Below, piece after piece: positions 24,900 to 64,000 of a DNA stretch of 64,000 nt. The notes below the pieces were generated by a model that was not told the origin of the DNA, ran no database searches, and saw only the letters and a program-made list of their open reading frames with translations. Within the stretch, counting starts at the first letter, position 1. Every line of letters begins with the position of its first letter. The position numbers and the translations under genes are program-made. Origin of the DNA: a marine actinobacterium PHSC20C1 (lineage in GTDB: Bacteria > Actinomycetota > Actinomycetes > Actinomycetales > Microbacteriaceae); assembly GCA_000153145.1 (NCBI GenBank), contig CH672415.1:127854-191853 (forward strand). Direction: 5' to 3'.

Positions 24900-25694
24900 A
24901 TGCTGCGCACTGTTTCGTCCCACCAAGAGCTTGACCTTCGCGGTCGCACCGAGATGGTCTTCAGCATTGCTGTTGCGGCAACATGGCCGACAACATCCGA
25001 GTCTCTTGATTTTGTGTTGGACGGCGTGCCCCAGCAATCAACAGAGCTAGTCGACGCGCGTGGCACCCGCCTGCACACGCTGATTGCGGGCCCTGGGCGC
25101 CTGATAGTGGATTACGCCGCCACGGTCGAGGCCGCTCCCGAGCCCGCCCCGCTCAATGACTTTGACCGAGTCGAATATTTGCGTCCCAGCCGCTATTGCG
25201 AGTCTGACGTTCTTACACCGACCGCTCGCTCGCAGTTTCCGACCCAGACCGGTCACGAGTTGGTGCAGGCTGTGCGCGATTGGGTGTCACACAACGTTCG
25301 GTACACTCCCGGCATTTCCGCTTCGACCGATGGGGCGGCGCACTCGCTGTTGTCCCGACGCGGTGTTTGTCGTGACTATGCACACCTCACGATCGCCATG
25401 TTGCGCGCGAAAGATGTGCCAGCTCGCTATGCCTCTGTCTACGCGCCCGGGCTTAGCCCGATGGACTTTCACGCGGTAGCCGAAGCGTACGTAGACGGGG
25501 CATGGTGGGTTGTTGATTCCACCGGGCTAGCCCCGCGCCAGTCACTTGTGCGAATTGCAACGGGCCGGGATGCGGCGGATGTCGCATTCCTCACCAATCA
25601 CTGGGCCGATCTTTTCCTTCTGAATTTATCGATCACGGCCACGGCCGACGTTCTGCCGAGCGACGATCACCGCTCGCCGGTTCAACTCTCTTAG
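24900..25694 (+). CDS. Transglutaminase-like cysteine protein
   Basis: A 264-residue protein with an N-terminal beta region (bacterial transglutaminase N-like) and a transglutaminase core. The Cys-His-Asp triad is clear: RRGVCRDYAHL (Cys157), MDFHAVAEAYV (His191) and WWVVDSTGLAP (Asp206). No signal peptide, so cytosolic. Bacterial members may act as peptidases or amide-modifying enzymes; substrate unknown. It stands alone after the tRNA gene. Confidence 0.9.
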   Translation: MLRTVSSHQELDLRGRTEMVFSIAVAATWPTTSESLDFVLDGVPQQSTELVDARGTRLHTLIAGPGRLIVDYAATVEAAPEPAPLNDFDRVEYLRPSRYCESDVLTPTARSQFPTQTGHELVQAVRDWVSHNVRYTPGISASTDGAAHSLLSRRGVCRDYAHLTIAMLRAKDVPARYASVYAPGLSPMDFHAVAEAYVDGAWWVVDSTGLAPRQSLVRIATGRDAADVAFLTNHWADLFLLNLSITATADVLPSDDHRSPVQLS

Positions 25695-55341: not shown

Positions 55342-55950
55342 GTGAAACAGGACTTCGACGACACCATCACCGCGGGCGAGCGTCCCAGAGTGCTGCTGAC
55401 CGAGCCTGATTGTGACGACACCATAATTCTGGCGACGCGAAAGCACGCTCAAGTAGTGCAGCCGTACGCCGGACCCGCTGAGCCGCGCCAGCAATCTTCA
55501 GTCCAGCGCCCGGTTCGAGTTCCTCCCCAAGTGATCTCGCATTCAATAACGCCCTCGCGGACGGCAGCGCCGAAGGAGACCCCTGAAAGCTCGGCGCTGT
55601 ACTACCGCGTTCAGCTCGATGGAACGTCTGGCGCGCACAATCTTGAACACCCCTGCGTATTCGGACGCGACCCTCGTCCGCCGCGCGTCGTTCGTGGCGT
55701 TGGGCCACGGCTTATCGCCGTCCAATCTCCCACTCGAGAAGTCTCCGAAACGCATGTCGAAGTACGCCAACTCGGATCATCGGTTATCGTGACAGATCTC
55801 CGCTCTACGAATGGCTCGCTCGTTCAGGTGCCGGGCAATGCTGCACGAAAACTTCGGCAGGGTGAGTCGGTGGTCGTCTCCGCAGGCACGCTAGTAGATA
55901 TTGGAGACGGAAATATTATTCGGATTCTGCCGCGGCGGCGTCTGGAGTGA
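55342..55950 (+). CDS. FHA-domain protein with duplicated DDTI motif
   Basis: A 202-residue cytosolic protein. The C-terminal FHA domain (residues about 105-195) has the phosphothreonine-binding residues: FGRDPRPPRVV (Gly-Arg), SPTREVSETHVEV (Ser-x-x-His) and LRSTNGSL (Asn-Gly). The N-terminal 40 residues hold two similar tracts, DFDDTITAG and DCDDTIILA, which look like phosphorylatable threonine sites followed by a disordered linker. First gene of a set with a PP2C phosphatase and a Ser/Thr kinase, so it is a likely phospho-target or adaptor. Confidence 0.9.
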   Translation: MKQDFDDTITAGERPRVLLTEPDCDDTIILATRKHAQVVQPYAGPAEPRQQSSVQRPVRVPPQVISHSITPSRTAAPKETPESSALYYRVQLDGTSGAHNLEHPCVFGRDPRPPRVVRGVGPRLIAVQSPTREVSETHVEVRQLGSSVIVTDLRSTNGSLVQVPGNAARKLRQGESVVVSAGTLVDIGDGNIIRILPRRRLE

Positions 55951-55969
55951 ATTGCGCAGGAAGGTAGCC

Positions 55970-56764
55970 GTGACCGAAATCGGCGGCAACAACTCACGGC
56001 ACACAATCGCATTGCCGGGGCGAGAAGACCAAGAGTTCACGTTTGCGTGGGCTGCTGGCACGCACACCGGCCATCGGCGTGCCGCGAACGAGGACAGTTA
56101 TGTTGCCCGTTCCCCGATGTTCGCGGTAGCTGACGGTATGGGCGGTCACTCTGCAGGCGACCTCGCTAGTGCGGCAGTTGTCGAGCGACTCGATGACGCG
56201 ATCACTGGAGACTTCTTGCCGGCTCGCGCAGTAGAGCGCGCACTCGAGCGCGCCACTGACTACATCGGCCTGATAGCTCAAGACAGTGAGCTCGGCGTTG
56301 GTACTACGGTGACCGGTGTTGTTGTAACCGAACATCATGAGTCAGCAAGCTTTGCCGTATTCAACGTTGGTGACAGCCGCGTCTATTGTTTCGAAGACGA
56401 TGCCCTCGTACAGATAACTCGTGACCACTCGGTTGTTCAAGACCTTGTGGAAGCGGGAGCTATCTCGCGAGGCGAGGCGGACGATCATCCGGACGCCAAC
56501 ATCATCACTCGGGCGATCGGATTCAATGCTGCTCCAGCTCCAGACTTTTGGATGGTTCCGATTCACCAAGGGCAGCGCCTTCTCATTTGCTCCGATGGAC
56601 TCACTCGTGAAGTGCCTGACGACGAGCTTGAACGTCAGCTGGCGGAGCGACGCGATCCTGCAGAAACTGTGTCGACATTACTGGAGTCAGCGCTTGACAG
56701 CGGTGGCAGGGACAACATCACGGCAATCGTCCTTGACGTGTTAGAAGTACCTACAGTGGACTAG
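55970..56764 (+). CDS. PP2C-family Ser/Thr phosphatase
   Basis: A 264-residue phosphatase with all metal-binding motifs: RAANEDSYV (near residue 41), VADGMGGHSAGD (near 55), the TT/GDSR block FNVGDSRVYCF, LLICSDGLTREV and GRDNITAIV. Soluble, with no membrane helix. The GTG start is chosen for AGGAAGG upstream. It probably reverses phosphorylation by the transmembrane kinase encoded 120 bp downstream. Confidence 0.93.
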   Translation: MTEIGGNNSRHTIALPGREDQEFTFAWAAGTHTGHRRAANEDSYVARSPMFAVADGMGGHSAGDLASAAVVERLDDAITGDFLPARAVERALERATDYIGLIAQDSELGVGTTVTGVVVTEHHESASFAVFNVGDSRVYCFEDDALVQITRDHSVVQDLVEAGAISRGEADDHPDANIITRAIGFNAAPAPDFWMVPIHQGQRLLICSDGLTREVPDDELERQLAERRDPAETVSTLLESALDSGGRDNITAIVLDVLEVPTVD

Positions 56765-56780
56765 ACGTTCGGTCCTCCAT

Positions 56781-56807
56781 ACTGGGGACACCAATTCTGA
56801 CCCCAGT
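56781..56807 (+). other. Hairpin between phosphatase and kinase genes
   Basis: ACTGGGG and CCCCAGT (7 bp, perfect) enclose a 13-nt loop, 17 nt after the phosphatase stop. No U-tract follows, so it may be a weak terminator, an mRNA stabiliser or an operator. The 120-bp gap also contains a TAGAAT (56846-56851) that could be a -10 for the kinase gene. Confidence 0.4.
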
Positions 56808-56884
56808 CAAGGGGCAGAATCCGGTAATTGAGTGATTTGCGCACTTAGAATAGTCGCAATCGTCGACATATTAGGGGGTGTGCT

Positions 56885-58312
56885 GTGGCTCGAAGACTGC
56901 CCTCAGAGCCCCCTGCCCTCCCGGGGTTTTCACACGTCCACGTTCTCGGCTCCGGTGGATTCGCCGACGTGTTCCTGTACGAGCAAAATATGCCCCGTCG
57001 ACAGGTCGCAGTCAAAGTCATGCTTAGCGAGGTCGTCAACGACCAGGTTCGCCAGATGTTTCAGGCCGAAGCGAACCTTATGGCGCAACTGAGCGCGCAT
57101 CCGTCGATCCTTACGGTGTATCAAGCGAGCGTCTCGTCAGACGGCCGACCCTATCTAGTGATGGAACTCTGTTCGTCGACACTCAGCCAGCGCTACCGGT
57201 CAGAACGACTTCCGGTGCCCGAAGTTCTTCGCATCGCAATCAAAATTGGTAGTGCGATTGAAACGGCACACCGCGCGGGTGTTCTCCACCGCGATATCAA
57301 GCCATCAAATATTCTGACAACGGCCTACGGGCATCCTGTGCTTTCTGACTTCGGTATCGCAGCAACCCTCAGCGAGTCCGAAAATCTCGAAGCGGTTGGC
57401 ATGTCTATTCCCTGGTCTGCGCCGGAAGTCCTTATGGATGAGACAGCAGGCACGATCGAATCAGAACTGTGGTCGTATGCGGCTACCGTATATTCACTCT
57501 TAGCTGGCCGCTCACCTTTTGAGGTGCCGGGCGAGTCGAACAAGTCGACTGACCTCATTTCGCGGATCAACCGCGCGAAGCCTCGCACCACGGGTCGCAG
57601 CGATGCACCGGAGAGTTTGGAGCGTGCGCTCAGCCGCGCAATGTCGCGCAAACCCGAGTCTCGCCAGGGGAGCGTCCTCGAGCTAGTGCACGAGCTCCAA
57701 GCTGTGGAATCTGAATTGGGCCTCTCGCAGACCCCAATTGAAGTAGCCATGGACGATTGGGCTCTAGCCACGGTTGCAGAACTTGAGGACCGCACGCGGG
57801 TTCGTCCAGGACAGGCATTGCCCGTCTCCTCAGCTCAGCGCCGCAAACGTCGTCGTCCGCCAGCAATCGATGACAGCTTTGGCTCGTTTGACAGTGAAGC
57901 TGAGGACGACAAAGTTCCTCGCCGAAAGAGTGGAACGAACCCGATTCCCCGTTCCGGCCGCATGCAAGCGATTGCCTGGGTAGGAGTTATTCTCGCTGCG
58001 CTCATCGTGGTCCTCGGCGCAACGGTAACGTTCAGCCAATTGCAGGCGAAGTCGAACGATATCCCCGCAGTTAGTGACATCAGTGCAACCGTCTCTGGTG
58101 ACATCGTCGAGTTTTCTTGGGCAGACCCAGGACTTGAATCAGGGGACACCTACCAAATTGCTACTACCGATGGTCAGCCATCGGTGCAGCAACGCGAACC
58201 AAACTTTGTTGTTGACGGTGAGGCGGGCGAGAACGTCTGCATTTCAGTAACAGTCACGCGTGACGGCAAGTCAGGGCCGTCGAGTGCACAGAAGTGTGCG
58301 GTGCTGCCATGA
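56885..58312 (+). CDS. Transmembrane Ser/Thr protein kinase with FN3-like ectodomain
   Basis: A 475-residue Hanks-type kinase. The cytosolic catalytic domain (about residues 17-280) has the glycine loop LGSGGFADVF, Lys44 in VAVKVM, HRDIKPSN (Asp137), DFG (Asp155), APE in SAPEVL and the helix-F region SELWSYAATVY, where the conserved Asp is Glu. A basic linker, one membrane helix (about 359-382) and an extracellular FN3-like domain of about 90 residues with two Cys follow. GTG start with AGGGGG upstream. Confidence 0.93.
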   Translation: MARRLPSEPPALPGFSHVHVLGSGGFADVFLYEQNMPRRQVAVKVMLSEVVNDQVRQMFQAEANLMAQLSAHPSILTVYQASVSSDGRPYLVMELCSSTLSQRYRSERLPVPEVLRIAIKIGSAIETAHRAGVLHRDIKPSNILTTAYGHPVLSDFGIAATLSESENLEAVGMSIPWSAPEVLMDETAGTIESELWSYAATVYSLLAGRSPFEVPGESNKSTDLISRINRAKPRTTGRSDAPESLERALSRAMSRKPESRQGSVLELVHELQAVESELGLSQTPIEVAMDDWALATVAELEDRTRVRPGQALPVSSAQRRKRRRPPAIDDSFGSFDSEAEDDKVPRRKSGTNPIPRSGRMQAIAWVGVILAALIVVLGATVTFSQLQAKSNDIPAVSDISATVSGDIVEFSWADPGLESGDTYQIATTDGQPSVQQREPNFVVDGEAGENVCISVTVTRDGKSGPSSAQKCAVLP

Positions 58313-58330
58313 TGACGGGAACTAGCGCTT

Positions 58331-61300
58331 ATGGCTAGGCGCTGGGGCGGGGCGCGTCGATCAACGATTGTCGGCGCTGTAAGCATCTCAGCGATCGTCG
58401 CGTTAGTAACGACGGTCGCTATTGTGTCGACGGGGTACACCGCGCAACATGTGGATCTCGCCGACGGCGCCGTGTGGGTGGCGAACAATCAACAGCAGGC
58501 GATTGGTCGCGCGAGCACAGAGGTCCTTGAAATAAATTCGGTCGTCAACGCGCGAAGTGCCGACCTTGAAGTCGTTCAGCACGGCGAGAACGTTCTACTG
58601 TTTGATCGCTCAGAGAGCTCGATCGATGTTATCGACCCAGCACTGTCTGAGATTGCCGAGAGCGTTGCGCTTCCTCCGAACCAACCGGAGGTCTATTTTG
58701 CTGCCAATAATGTTGTGGTTCTTGAGCACGGCACCGGTGAGGTCTGGATCCGTTCATTCGAGGACTTTCTCAACTTTGATGCTGAGTCTGCCGCGTCGTT
58801 GAGTCTCGGCGCTGACGCAATAGTGAGCGTTGACGAGAACGGTTTGTTGTTCGCGTTCTCCCCATCAACGAGTCAGCTTTTCCGAGTGAATGCTGCAATA
58901 TCCGATGTCGCTGAATCTAGTGTCAGTCTCGATGTCGATACCACCGCAGACCTCAGCATCACGTCAGCTTCCGGCCAGTGGGCAATTCTTGATTCGAATG
59001 CTCAACTGCTCCACCTGGATGGCAGAACTGTCGACCTCACAGGCCTCATTGATGGTGGCAATGGTGCTGTTCTTCAGCTTCCGTCTGTAGCGGGTGAGCG
59101 AGTGCTCGTTGGCTACAGCGACGGAGTGCTGAGCGTCCCACTCAACGGTGCAGCAGCAGTCGGGCTAGCAACAGGACAATCGGGACTCGCTGCGCCGCCG
59201 CTGCGAATTGGTGAGTGCGAATTTGCGGGCTGGACTAGCGGCCAAAATTGGCGCCGCTGTCCTTCCGACTCCGGAGATGGGGTAATGCTTCAGTTGGCTG
59301 AAATGGAAGCCAATGCGCAGCTTTCCTATTCAGTCAATGGCAAGCGTGCTGTACTCAATGACCGCCTCAGCGGTCGCACATGGGCGGTACAGGACGACGG
59401 CGAGCTGATCAATAACTGGAACCAGCTCATTACGACAGATGATGAGGAGCCCGAGGTCGAACAGAACCTCCTCGATCTTGAGCCAGAAGTTGACAAGGTG
59501 CAACAACCGCCGGTCGCTGTCGATGACATTTTTGGTGCGAGGCCCGGGCGCGCGACAGTGTTGCCTGTCTTGTTGAACGACTATGACGCGAACGGTGACG
59601 TTCTCGTTGTTGAAGCATTGCCAACGATCAGCGCTGGACTCGGCCGCATCGACCGAATCAACGAGCGTCAACAGATCCAGCTGACTCTTGAACCTGGGGC
59701 AAGCGGTCAAGTGAGCTTCACCTACACGGTGAGCGATGGCCGTGGGGGCACAGCGAGCGCCTCGGTAGTTGTAGAGATTCGTGCGGATTCTGAGAATTCG
59801 CCCCCGCAGCAGATGCGCGCGACCAAATTCACCGTTCAAACCAGTGGACGAGTTTCTAATCAGATTCTCGGTGACTGGGTAGACCCAGACGGTGACCCGT
59901 TCTACCTCACAAGCGCATCAGTTGCGGCTCCCGATGCTGTTAGCTACAAGCCAGGTGGCGATGTTGTCTTCTCTGACTCGGGCGCCGGTGGAGAACTCAA
60001 AGTTGTGACCCTTGTTGTTTCTGACGGCGATGCCGAAAGCTCGGGAAGCATTTCGGTCTCGGTTAAACCACCGGGTGAGGTTCCCATCGAAGCCGACCCA
60101 TTCGTTGTGCTCGCCTATGCGGGCAAGGAAGTCACCGTATCGCCGCTGGGCCACGTGCGCGGAGGCAACGGCAACATCCGCCTCAATAGCGTTCCGGCGA
60201 AGACGGGTGCACAAGTATCACCGAGCTACGAAACAGGAACATTCCGCTTTAAGAGCGATGAGATTCGCAGCCATAATCTTGAATACGTAGTGACTGATGG
60301 CAATCTGACGCACACCGCGATCGTGCGAATCGACGTTGTTGCGCCTCCTGACGCCAACACTTCGCCGATCACCGTTCCTAAGACGATTTTCGTGCAGACG
60401 CTCCAGAACGAACGCATCGATGTCGCGGGAACCGACGTGGATCCTGCCGGAGGAGTGCTGCTCGTTACTGAGATCATGAACCTTCCCATTGGTTCGGGTG
60501 TGCGTGCCGAAATTTTGGAACAGCGCCTCGTCCGAGTCAGCCTCGAGGCACCGCTTGATGACGGGCCAGTAAGCTTCAACTACCGAATCAGTAACGGGTT
60601 AGCGGATGCCGTTGGCGTCATTACCGTCGTCGAGATTCCGGCTCCTTCCCGACTTCAAGCGCCGATCGCCAACGACGACTCGATTACCGTTCGTGTCGGT
60701 CAAGCCGTCGACATCCGCGTACTTCAGAACGACGAGCATCCCGACGGGCTAGAGCTCTCGCTGGTTCCCAAGTTGGCTCAAGATTTGGCTGACGACTCTG
60801 GATTGCTGTTCGCGTCTGGCGAGGTGCTGAGGTATCTCGCACCCAATCGAACGGGTAACTTCACCGCGGCATACCAAGTTGCCGGGCCTGACGGGCAATC
60901 TGCTACCGCGATTGTGCGTATTGCCGTTCGCGAACTTGATCCTGCAAGCAACAACCCGCCCGTTCCTCCGACGGTGACAGCGCGAGTACTTGCCGGTGAT
61001 ACCGTGCGCGTACAAATTCCTCTGACTGCTGCAGACCCCGATGGTGACTCAGTGCAGTTGCTCGGCCAGGCCACGAACCCGAGCAAGGGTGCCGTCATTG
61101 AAGTTGACGCCAACACGTTTGTGTACCAAGCGGGGGAGTATTCGGCAGGAACTGACACCTTCAGCTACACCCTCATCGACTCTTTGGGTGCGAGAGCAAA
61201 CGGTGAAATCAATATCGGCATTAGCCCTCGAGTCGAAGGGGCACGCAACCCCGTCGCGATTATTGACGAGGTAACAGTGCAGCCGGGGATCACTGTTTCG

Positions 61301-64000
61301 GTTCAAGTGCTTGCCAATGACTCGGACCCCGACGGCAGTCCACTTTCCGTGGTCTCCGTCGAGCCAAACGATCCGAATACTGTCGCCGAAATTGACGGCG
61401 ATGTAGTGAAGGTCACGCCCCCTCCAACGCCTGGCGATTACGGCATTATTTATGTGATCGAGAACGAGACCGGCGGCTCGAGTCAGAACTTCATCCGTGT
61501 CACGGTAGATCCCGACGCAAAACCCGCCTATCCGTTGGCAACGGACAGCGTGCTAACACTGTCTGATGTGCTCGATCGCAACAGGGTCACTGTGGATGTT
61601 CTTGCGGGGGTCTTCTTTGCGGATGGTGATCCCCGAACACTGTCGTTGGCGATCTATCCAGGCTATGGCGATGCAGCCAGGGTGACCTCCGACAAGAAGA
61701 TTGAGGTCTCTGTCGGTGATTCTGGGCAGATCATTCCCTTCCGTGTGACTAATCCGGCGGATCCTGATGTGTTCAGCTATGCCTTCATCAAGGTTCCTGG
61801 ATACAACGATGCTTTGCCTCAAATTGATCGCCGAGCCAATAAACTCAGCGTCAATAGCGAGAGCACCCTCGTCATTGACCTCAACGACTACATCATTGCG
61901 GTCGGGGAGCAGCCGGTTCGCTTGACTGACTCCAGCACTGTGCTTGCGACTCACAGCGATGGTTCAGATCTGGTGCGCGACGAAGACACTCTCGTGTACA
62001 CGTCTGCTGAAAAATACTTTGGTCCGGCATCCATTTCGTTCGAAGTGACAGATGGTACTTCTGCGACTGATCCTGATGGGCGGACGGCAATTCTCGTGCT
62101 TCCCATTGAAGTACTTCCTCGAGACAATCAAGCACCCGTTTTTGGTGGTGCCGTAATTGACTTTGAACCAGGGCAAGAGAAAGAAATTGACCTGCTGAAG
62201 TTGACCAACTATCCGTACCCTGACGACTTGGATGAACTCGCCTACTCTGTGCTGAGCCCGCTTCCGGAAGGCTTCACATACTCGCTCGATGGCACAGTGT
62301 TGACACTGCGCGCGAACAGTAGTGCTCTCAAGGGGACACGAACCTCAATTTCTCTTGGAGTTCGGGATGATCTCTCTGAGGGCAAGTCTGGACGAATCGA
62401 ACTCAACGTAGTTCCCTCGACTCGACCGCTTGCGAGCCCGGCCGCAGATCTCGCGATCGCACAGCGCGGGCAGACGACAGTTGTCGACGTGCTCGCCAAT
62501 GATGCTTCAACAAACCCCTTCCCTGGAGCACCGCTGCGCGTGATTGACATTCGCGGACTCGGGGGAAGCTCAATTCCTGCCGGACTTTCAATTGTTCCCA
62601 GCAATGACAACAGCACTCTCACCGTCACTGTGTCTGCCGCGGCAGTCCCCGGCGACGTAAATCTGCAGTATCGGGTGGCGGACGCTACGAATGATGCGAG
62701 CCGTTACGTGTGGGGGACCGTGGTTGTATCGGTCCAAGACCGTCCCGACTCTGTCTCTAACCTTGGCCCTAGCGGGTTCGGCGACAAGACGATCATGATG
62801 CGATGGAACGCGGGCCCTGCAAACAATTCGGCAATCACTTCGTACCGAGTCACGACGAAATCGGCCGGAGTGGTTGTCAATACCACTGAGTGTGCTGGCA
62901 CAACGTGCGCGATAGCCACGTCGGGTAATGGTCCAGCGAACTCCGTAAAGGTGACTGTGATTGCGATTAACGCAATCGGAGAGTCCGACCCCGTAACGCT
63001 CGCGGATCCAGTCTGGTCCGACATCATTCCTGTTGCGCCGACTGGACTGAGCGCCGCGCCGCTTGACCACGGACTCCGACTGACGTGGAACGCGGTACCG
63101 ACGCCGACCGGCGGTTCACCGGTTGACCGATATCGTGTGGCCGTCGGTGGCTTTGAGACTTCAATCGGGCTTACCGCGTGCGACAGTTCGAGCTGCACCT
63201 GGGAGACCCCTTCAACGTGGGTGCTCGACAATGGAGTTGCCGTAACCTACACGGTGAGCGCTCGCAACGCTGCCTATACAGCTCTTTCGGTGTGGAACAC
63301 GAGCGAGCCTCGGAGTGCGATTCCAGCAGGTCCGCCCATTGCGCTATCAGCTCCTGTCGCAAGCGTCATCAACGACAGCACCGCGAACCTGACGTGGGCT
63401 GGTGCGTTCAACGAGAACGGACGGCCCGTTACTGCGTACACGGCCGCTGCCTACACCGGCACCGCGCCAACGTGCGCCGCGAACGGTTCGATAACCAGCC
63501 ACGGTGCGGCGCTTGTCGCGGCGGGCAACGGAACGTCAGCAACTTTCTCGGGGCTCTCGCCGAATCGCAGTTATTCGATGCTCGTATTTGCTAACAACGG
63601 TCAAGGCTGCACCGCATCGCCTGCGGTAGTGGCACACACCCCACCCGCAGTCGTTACTGCTTTGAACACTGCTGGCCCGGTGCCCAACGGCAACCGATTT
63701 GATTTCACCGTCAACGGCGGAATGATGGGCAGCGACTCGCTCACGAGCGATTACACGCTCTACTACCGCTTGAGCGGTGGAAGTGTTCCAGGCACCATCT
63801 TCGGTCCCGTAGCGCTTGGCTCATTCTTGACAGCGGATGGCGGACAGCAGTACGGCAAGTACATCTCAGTTGAGGTGCGAGCTTGCCGCAGTTACGGCTC
63901 CGGTCCCATCTGTCAACCGACGTGGTCGGCACCGTTCCCACTTGGAGTACCCGTGAATCCTGCGGTCGCTACACTCACTTTCACCTCTGACGGAGATATC
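58331..64000 (+). CDS. Giant membrane-anchored Ig/cadherin-like and FN3 repeat protein (3' partial)
   Basis: At least 1,890 codons, open to the window end. Layout: N-terminal membrane anchor (residues 1-35, TIVGAVSISAIVALVTTVAIV); a beta-propeller-like region to about residue 375; an acidic spacer (DDEEPEVEQNLLDLEPEVD); roughly eleven tandem Ig/cadherin-like domains, about 59.5-62.75 kb, with motifs such as LLNDYDANGDVLVV and VLANDSDPDGSPLSV; then at least three FN3 domains from 62.75 kb. The ATG is 18 nt after the kinase stop. Function unknown; such proteins act in adhesion or envelope structure. The end lies beyond the window. Confidence 0.88.
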   Translation, partial: MARRWGGARRSTIVGAVSISAIVALVTTVAIVSTGYTAQHVDLADGAVWVANNQQQAIGRASTEVLEINSVVNARSADLEVVQHGENVLLFDRSESSIDVIDPALSEIAESVALPPNQPEVYFAANNVVVLEHGTGEVWIRSFEDFLNFDAESAASLSLGADAIVSVDENGLLFAFSPSTSQLFRVNAAISDVAESSVSLDVDTTADLSITSASGQWAILDSNAQLLHLDGRTVDLTGLIDGGNGAVLQLPSVAGERVLVGYSDGVLSVPLNGAAAVGLATGQSGLAAPPLRIGECEFAGWTSGQNWRRCPSDSGDGVMLQLAEMEANAQLSYSVNGKRAVLNDRLSGRTWAVQDDGELINNWNQLITTDDEEPEVEQNLLDLEPEVDKVQQPPVAVDDIFGARPGRATVLPVLLNDYDANGDVLVVEALPTISAGLGRIDRINERQQIQLTLEPGASGQVSFTYTVSDGRGGTASASVVVEIRADSENSPPQQMRATKFTVQTSGRVSNQILGDWVDPDGDPFYLTSASVAAPDAVSYKPGGDVVFSDSGAGGELKVVTLVVSDGDAESSGSISVSVKPPGEVPIEADPFVVLAYAGKEVTVSPLGHVRGGNGNIRLNSVPAKTGAQVSPSYETGTFRFKSDEIRSHNLEYVVTDGNLTHTAIVRIDVVAPPDANTSPITVPKTIFVQTLQNERIDVAGTDVDPAGGVLLVTEIMNLPIGSGVRAEILEQRLVRVSLEAPLDDGPVSFNYRISNGLADAVGVITVVEIPAPSRLQAPIANDDSITVRVGQAVDIRVLQNDEHPDGLELSLVPKLAQDLADDSGLLFASGEVLRYLAPNRTGNFTAAYQVAGPDGQSATAIVRIAVRELDPASNNPPVPPTVTARVLAGDTVRVQIPLTAADPDGDSVQLLGQATNPSKGAVIEVDANTFVYQAGEYSAGTDTFSYTLIDSLGARANGEINIGISPRVEGARNPVAIIDEVTVQPGITVSVQVLANDSDPDGSPLSVVSVEPNDPNTVAEIDGDVVKVTPPPTPGDYGIIYVIENETGGSSQNFIRVTVDPDAKPAYPLATDSVLTLSDVLDRNRVTVDVLAGVFFADGDPRTLSLAIYPGYGDAARVTSDKKIEVSVGDSGQIIPFRVTNPADPDVFSYAFIKVPGYNDALPQIDRRANKLSVNSESTLVIDLNDYIIAVGEQPVRLTDSSTVLATHSDGSDLVRDEDTLVYTSAEKYFGPASISFEVTDGTSATDPDGRTAILVLPIEVLPRDNQAPVFGGAVIDFEPGQEKEIDLLKLTNYPYPDDLDELAYSVLSPLPEGFTYSLDGTVLTLRANSSALKGTRTSISLGVRDDLSEGKSGRIELNVVPSTRPLASPAADLAIAQRGQTTVVDVLANDASTNPFPGAPLRVIDIRGLGGSSIPAGLSIVPSNDNSTLTVTVSAAAVPGDVNLQYRVADATNDASRYVWGTVVVSVQDRPDSVSNLGPSGFGDKTIMMRWNAGPANNSAITSYRVTTKSAGVVVNTTECAGTTCAIATSGNGPANSVKVTVIAINAIGESDPVTLADPVWSDIIPVAPTGLSAAPLDHGLRLTWNAVPTPTGGSPVDRYRVAVGGFETSIGLTACDSSSCTWETPSTWVLDNGVAVTYTVSARNAAYTALSVWNTSEPRSAIPAGPPIALSAPVASVINDSTANLTWAGAFNENGRPVTAYTAAAYTGTAPTCAANGSITSHGAALVAAGNGTSATFSGLSPNRSYSMLVFANNGQGCTASPAVVAHTPPAVVTALNTAGPVPNGNRFDFTVNGGMMGSDSLTSDYTLYYRLSGGSVPGTIFGPVALGSFLTADGGQQYGKYISVEVRACRSYGSGPICQPTWSAPFPLGVPVNPAVATLTFTSDGDI

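Follow-up and report, generated by a model that had tools for sequence, protein, structure and literature searches.

We analysed a window of 64,000 nucleotides of the marine actinobacterium PHSC20C1 (bases 127,854-191,853 of a single-contig genome of 2.77 Mb). A gene cluster that spans about 183,195-202,574 in the genome starts in the last part of the window. It encodes phospho-signalling proteins, a 1,968-aa surface protein with propeller, Ig and FN3 parts (hereafter, the giant) and a transglutaminase-like protein (TGM). Judged from gene content and order, the cluster is a PFNA-type operon, a known kind. What appears to be new against the accessible text of the literature is the wide range of the operon and the strict loss of catalysis that the alignments indicate for the TGM.

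Genes of the cluster

All cluster genes described here lie on the forward strand. The first one, with a GTG start, encodes an FHA-domain protein of 202 aa (55342-55950; Pfam FHA, E 1e-5). It is followed by the gene of a 264-aa PP2C-type Ser/Thr phosphatase (55970-56764; Pfam PP2C_2 over cut-off), whose longest frame is 55901-56764, with a better start at GTG 55970, 19 nt past the FHA stop. After a gap of 120 nt comes the gene of a Pkb2-like membrane Ser/Thr kinase of 475 aa (56885-58312; Pfam Pkinase, E 1.5e-40), and 18 nt past its stop the gene of the giant begins (58331-64000, cut by the window; true end at window-equivalent 64237, genome base 192,090). In the initial annotation, made from the window sequence, the genes of FHA, PP2C and kinase followed one another in this order on a single strand, the last one 18 nt ahead of the giant, which the open reading frames and Pfam bore out.

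It had also predicted that genes for MoxR, DUF58 and a transglutaminase would follow the giant. All three are present past position 64,000 on the same strand, the last one as the transglutaminase-like TGM: MoxR, an AAA+ ATPase, at genome positions 192,100-193,071, its membrane partner DUF58 at 193,068-194,501, and TGM at 194,498-196,789. Next to them, from about 196,800, is a gene for a zinc-ribbon/FHA protein; the intergenic gaps from the kinase through this gene are 18, 9, -4, -4 and 10 nt, a spacing that would be compatible with co-transcription. The cluster ends, after a gap of 129 nt, with a gene for an EssC-like ATPase of the FtsK/SpoIIIE type (199,548-202,574; 1,008 aa).

In the kinase, the catalytic domain occupies residues 17-262 and a single transmembrane helix residues 363-381. 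The small ectodomain of about 94 aa (58028-58309) is of disulfide type: one Trp and a pair of Cys do not vary in an alignment of 16 relatives (W31, C71 and C90). Its fold may be FN3/Ig-like. A firm FN3 assignment was rejected, with the best PDB match at E 0.092 and a Pfam fn3 match in one of the 16 members at E 0.16. With respect to PASTA kinases, no PASTA domain was matched by Pfam at E 0.01, and the NCBIfam score for PknB/Stk1 was 172.6 bits vs a cut-off of 450. We also observed a kinase subtype that ends right after the transmembrane helix and has no ectodomain (L072-L075, L144, L145, L159, L160, L162, L168); several TGMs that accompany this subtype carry a longer insertion ahead of the pseudo-active site.

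The giant was described by the initial annotation as a membrane-anchored protein of more than 1,890 residues with propeller-like, Ig/cadherin-like and FN3 parts; Pfam and the structural model agree with this description of the protein, now complete. The AlphaFold model of the first 400 residues (pLDDT 80.9) consists of one transmembrane helix and a beta-propeller proximal to the membrane. The helix (residues 10-35; 58358-58435), also visible in hydropathy, has in our own reading no clear cleavage site. The propeller (residues 43-356; 58457-59398) matched numerous BamB entries in Foldseek as well as the archaeal YVTN propeller 1l0q (E 1.8e-11). In VIA-align it matched Rsa4 (Z 21.7) and the designed Tako8 (Z 19.7), which is titled eight-bladed; the modelled propeller is probably eight-bladed as well. 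A region of Ig/cadherin-like repeats extends from residue 392 (59504-62740, the far end being approximate), and an FN3 domain occupies residues 1677-1760 (63359-63610; Pfam fn3, E 7.9e-13). Pfam matches over cut-off were to Big_9 (six stretches), Cadherin_5, Cadherin_4 and fn3, and the tandem-95 repeats of NCBIfam were over cut-off too. At least one further FN3 stretch lies near the FN3 domain: a scan of 62600-63998 alone gave two fn3 stretches, with E up to 1.

Loss of the catalytic cysteine in the TGM

The predicted topology of the TGM comprises seven N-terminal transmembrane helices, an extracytoplasmic domain, one more transmembrane helix and a tail. The TGM of the window's genome matched the Pfam transglutaminase family at E 1.9e-12 and was assigned the transglutaminase fold, and the ectodomain model of the TGM from B. 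scaligerum matched the periplasmic domain of TgpA (6g49) at E 6.1e-13. HMMER aligned the Cys of TgpA opposite a variable residue of the TGMs. For the window's genome this residue is the Gly in the center of the motif G-D-G-E-Q-Y, and the catalytic His is replaced by Ser.

We found that the loss of the catalytic Cys runs through the whole set of giant-linked TGMs (121 rows, 116 distinct). The catalytic Cys was present in 0 of the 116 distinct sequences, with the column occupied by S in 39, D in 32, A in 20, E in 11, G in 8 and Q in 6. The flanking G, E and Q were invariant in all 121 rows. The catalytic His was kept in 14 of the 116 distinct sequences. Among the ectodomains, 101 of 121 had no Cys at all. 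Another conserved Cys as a replacement was considered and rejected, since Cys reached at most about one tenth of the copies in any ectodomain column.

Control domains gave the opposite pattern. Cys was present in all three other Transglut_core proteins of the window's genome, and in the best non-cluster domain of 30 out of 30 genomes of the family; these controls were the best match each from 30 of the 35 genomes with a match, a choice that favours intact domains. The His was seen by eye in all 30 of them, with 21 counted by a narrower pattern. The five genomes that had no control (G003, G005, G012, G019 and G024) had the cluster TGM as the sole match. Both Cys and His were intact in all seven MoxR-DUF58-TGM loci that showed no giant (L221-L227). 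For L221-L226 there was no giant-length frame in the 2.1 to 7.1 kb before MoxR (just 2.1 kb in L224), while L227 begins inside the TGM and cannot show presence or absence of a giant. In three more loci (L189, L191, L198) the TGM is close to a contig end and the stretch contains no giant; they have Ser at the Cys column and were placed in neither contrast group. Elsewhere in the window, at 25245-25517, we observed a short transglutaminase-like protein with an intact Cys.

In a tree built with the Cys column removed, for which every fifth Bifidobacterium locus and 20 of the 30 controls were taken, the 89 giant-linked domains made one clade against the 27 Cys-bearing ones, with support of 0.988. 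A single clade of the Cys-less TGMs points to one loss, which happened when the module arose or close to that time. The other enzymes of the cluster retained the catalytic residues that we checked, with one or two exceptions among the aligned kinases: the Walker A Lys of MoxR in 119 of 119, the HRD Asp in 101 of 102 aligned kinases, and four Asp positions of PP2C in 59 to 65 of 65 sequences, the remainder being unaligned. Therefore, the loss in the TGM does not reflect general decay. As far as sequence can tell, the "transglutaminase" of the cluster is a pseudoenzyme, unable to use a catalytic cysteine. A literature search of titles and abstract openings returned no report of this loss; subscription papers were outside it, including the 2018 and 2022 PFNA papers cited in PMC12067865.

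Distribution, gene order and co-inheritance

In the window's family, which is Microbacteriaceae by the assignment of the initial annotation, the N-terminus of the giant was found in 32 of 40 genomes (one genome per genus); it was also found in 107 of 198 genomes of the order and in 35 of 396 genomes of the phylum, with the own genome counted each time. The phylum matches were strong in 13 genomes, the own one included, and weak and partial in 22 (E from 1e-8 to 6e-4). The four-gene core (giant, MoxR, DUF58 and TGM) occurred in 17 families, 13 of them in the order, a further one elsewhere in its class and three in other classes, and all four genes were present in 35 of the 38 loci checked for the core. 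A 36-row profile of the N-terminus, A1, with all rows from the window's family, matched intact giants of the Bifidobacterium family at about 168-217 bits. The N-terminal identity to Bifidobacterium giants was about 19-25%; inside the family set, the identity to the window's giant falls to 23%.

A scan of named genomes was run with A2, an alignment of three Bifidobacterium-family TGMs, after A1 was set aside as a query with no conserved stretch. The named loci are therefore biased to Bifidobacterium. The scan gave 53 loci: 44 from Bifidobacterium/Bifidobacteriaceae, one from Actinotalea, one from Cellulomonas marina and the seven loci with no giant found. Actinotalea and Cellulomonas are not known as gut genera. 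In Arthrobacter sp. StoSoilB13, whose soil origin is read from the strain name, a 1.35-Mb replicon carries a giant and a Cys-less TGM motif (the other genes of the record are unannotated). In Actinomyces oris (L257) the module is on a 415-kb replicon listed as a plasmid, where it adjoins sugar transferase and glycosyltransferase genes. By these sequence matches, the operon is not confined to bifidobacteria; it is widespread among actinobacteria, gut or not. The giant was not found in six family genomes of 0.9-1.8 Mb (G010, G013, G015, G027, G030, G038), and the module may have been lost in reduced genomes of the family. There are counter-cases to the size trend, as G005 and G012 (1.4 Mb) have the giant and the larger G016 and G039 do not.

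The gene order was compared in 120 loci with a labelled giant frame, of which 43 were picked by the TGM and 77 by the giant. Left out were L076 and L139 (one frame labelled otherwise) and L169 (no cluster label); L066, with giant and kinase beyond 14 kb, repeats L049 and was dropped, and L163 and L175 come from one genome. The order giant-MoxR-DUF58-TGM was found exactly in 114 of the 120 loci, so that the arrangement is not due to chance, and the comparison across relatives proposed in the initial annotation showed a conserved order. The longer order FHA-PP2C-kinase-giant-MoxR-DUF58-TGM was present in 15 loci, and the full nine-gene order ending in the FtsK/SpoIIIE ATPase in 11. The kinase gene was located directly 5' of the giant in 96 loci and after the TGM on the same strand in 12. 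Six loci deviated from the core order (L131, L135, L137, L146, L158 and L195). For example, DUF58 and TGM precede two tandem giants in L135, an FHA-scoring frame intervenes before the TGM in L146, L158 ends at a contig end, and L195 has broken giant and MoxR frames.

We also observed that pairwise distances of five proteins of the cluster were correlated, with rho from 0.56 to 0.86 compared to at most 0.22 in 200 label shuffles (81 loci, with about every fourth Bifidobacterium locus taken). Moreover, 11 genomes had two clusters in the set. In all 22 of these loci, each of the five genes had its nearest relative in a cluster of another genome and never in its own paralogue. This indicates that kinase and giant were inherited together; evolution of the giant independently of the kinase, which the initial annotation had named as an outcome against their link, was not found.

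Side by side with the single-giant loci, pairs of giant genes on one strand, spaced by about 6 kb, were seen in G591, G469, G509, G593, G546 and G574 as well as in L132 and L135, which suggests that the stalk protein was duplicated in tandem in several families. In L155, from a genome of the same class (7.1 Mb), a short giant of 781 aa lies beside MoxR, DUF58, a Cys-less TGM, a kinase and the EssC-like ATPase; this locus is possibly a minimal form of the module.

Proposed function and known systems

We consider it moderately probable that the cluster encodes a kinase-controlled MoxR/DUF58 machine that handles a surface stalk and in which a dead TgpA-like protein serves as receptor or scaffold, and that it is an old actinobacterial module inherited as a unit and did not originate in bifidobacteria. 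The kinase would sense an envelope or surface signal and phosphorylate MoxR and FHA ligands, as Pkb2 of B. longum is described to do for the MoxR ATPase in the accessible part of PMC8430577, and PP2C would reset the signalling. MoxR/DUF58 may then remodel or install a membrane complex that the pseudo-transglutaminase forms with the giant. The former may bind a peptide or protein (the giant or wall peptide) with no crosslinking, and the retention of the pocket-flanking residues, but not of the nucleophile, fits such binding. The giant would project from the membrane as an adhesin or receptor, which fits the adhesion reported for the B. bifidum FN3 protein in PMC12607495.

Several observations weigh against this machine. 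The kinase was not adjacent to the giant in 24 of the 120 loci (12 after the TGM, 3 on the opposite strand, 9 unseen in the stretch), and the kinase-giant pair had the weakest correlation of the ten pairs (0.56). The PP2C gene was found in just 64 of 121 loci, and the FHA protein gene in 66. The full-length giant of L131 (2,020 aa) had no partner gene labelled within the 20-kb stretch, and MoxR is missing from its place between giant and DUF58 in L137. Since one kinase subtype is almost without an ectodomain, a sensing ectodomain is not universal. In 39 of 116 TGMs the Cys column holds Ser, a residue that might in principle act as nucleophile, and the phosphorylation of MoxR would be carried over by analogy from a single species, B. 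longum.

A kinase that is absent or moved in some loci, a giant that stands with no core in L131 and four other Pkinase genes in the window's genome would all fit neighbours connected by shared descent only, with the kinase in a PknB-like general role and the giant as an independent adhesin. We regard such separate action as unlikely, because order and co-inheritance persist at an N-terminal identity down to 23%, paralogous copies included. A slightly less likely option is a secretion module, in which the FtsK/SpoIIIE ATPase and the zinc-ribbon/FHA protein would form a type VII-like motor exporting a cluster protein under control of the kinase. The best NCBIfam matches of the ATPase are indeed EssC and EccC, and the nine-gene order with the terminal ATPase recurs, as shown above. 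However, three NCBIfam scores were below the cut-offs (269.8 vs 778.4, 218.9 vs 509.15 and 178.8 vs 346.55 bits), the ATPase was labelled in just 20 of 121 loci (in stretches of about 16.6 kb or less), and the single WXG100 match of the genome, at 1,323,826, is 1.1 Mb away from the cluster. Identity with a type VII secretion system was thus rejected, with the ATPase under the EssC/EccC cut-offs and no linked WXG100 gene.

PFNA publications, in the text available, present the operon as unique to gut bifidobacteria and as a host-specific cytokine sensor with a transglutaminase. The giant would bind cytokines via WSxWS-like motifs of FN3 domains, which passages of PMC8430577 tie to cytokine receptors, and the kinase would report them; the same sources in part (PMC8430577, PMC10688814, PMC12607495) report that TNF-alpha is bound by an FN3 fragment from B. 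longum and that it induces the operon. We find host-immune sensing improbable as the basic role, because the module resides outside gut bacteria (Actinotalea, Cellulomonas marina, Arthrobacter sp. StoSoilB13 and 32 of 40 family genera) and none of the 44 giants from the Bifidobacterium family has the canonical WSxWS, which 11 of the 78 other giants do have. The looser WSxxS was commoner in Bifidobacterium giants, 44 of 44 compared to 39 of 78 outside (6 and 10, respectively, in shuffled sequences). Enriched in both groups, this motif is not a host signature by itself; WSxWS looks like a generic FN3 end, and cytokine sensing is at most a secondary role. Very hard to sustain is a covalent surface assembly with the transglutaminase crosslinking the giant to the wall or to itself. 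The TgpA-like fold of the modelled TGM speaks for it, and the TgpA periplasmic domain was assayed for, and named after, transglutaminase activity (PMC3507681, in part), yet the sequences contradict it: Cys is absent in 116 of 116, most ectodomains are Cys-free and the His is rare.

Going beyond the machine outlined above, we tentatively propose, with slightly less than even confidence, that PFNA is an ancestral envelope machine in which one early thiol loss made a TgpA-like enzyme a non-catalytic receptor, working with the giant under kinase/MoxR control. If so, a pseudoenzyme and not a crosslinker would be central to a system that has until now been interpreted as host-immune sensing. The wide range of the operon and the TGM's loss of a catalytic cysteine shift the question away from host immunity and towards a general function in the envelope, for which tractable non-host strains could be used. 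The strict, single-origin loss of a nucleophile among invariant neighbours is also a clean case of an enzyme turned into a binding module. The initial annotation, which had suggested an envelope sensing or adhesion system, was right on the kinase-giant link and on the downstream genes; the PFNA operon and the Cys loss went unrecognised in it.

The closest known system is the PFNA operon of Bifidobacterium, pkb2-fn3-aaa-atp-duf58-tgm, to which some species add prpC, a hypothetical gene and fha (PMC8430577, PMC6803598 and PMC10688814). The cluster shares with it the order of Ser/Thr kinase, FN3 giant, MoxR, DUF58 and TGM on one strand, and a membrane-anchored FN3 protein of about 2,000 residues with a homologous N-terminal region; B. 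scaligerum (L163/L175) has an eight-gene order. The window's cluster differs in having FHA and PP2C before the kinase and the zinc-ribbon/FHA protein and EssC-like ATPase after the TGM, and its genome belongs to another family of the same order. TgpA of Pseudomonas aeruginosa (6g49) is likewise a membrane protein with an extracytoplasmic transglutaminase domain of the same fold. According to the accessible text of PMC3507681 it is encoded in a predicted four-gene operon, has a Cys-His-Asp triad and was active in assays, while the cluster TGM lacks the Cys and is encoded alongside a giant and a kinase. The loci L221-L227 share the MoxR, DUF58 and TGM types but have the intact Cys and His and no giant found.

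In the mycobacterial moxR operon MoxR is followed by DUF58, and the review that describes it notes a resemblance to PFNA; its available text mentions no giant or kinase (PMC12067865). The MoxR-vWA-beta-propeller ternary systems, which occur mostly in other phyla (Kaur et al. 2020, PMC7159879, in part), also have operons that encode both a MoxR ATPase and a beta-propeller. Identity with them was rejected, as the bpMoxR score was 31.8 bits (cut-off 27) vs 208.2 bits for AAA_3, and the propeller of the present cluster sits on a giant membrane-anchored stalk.

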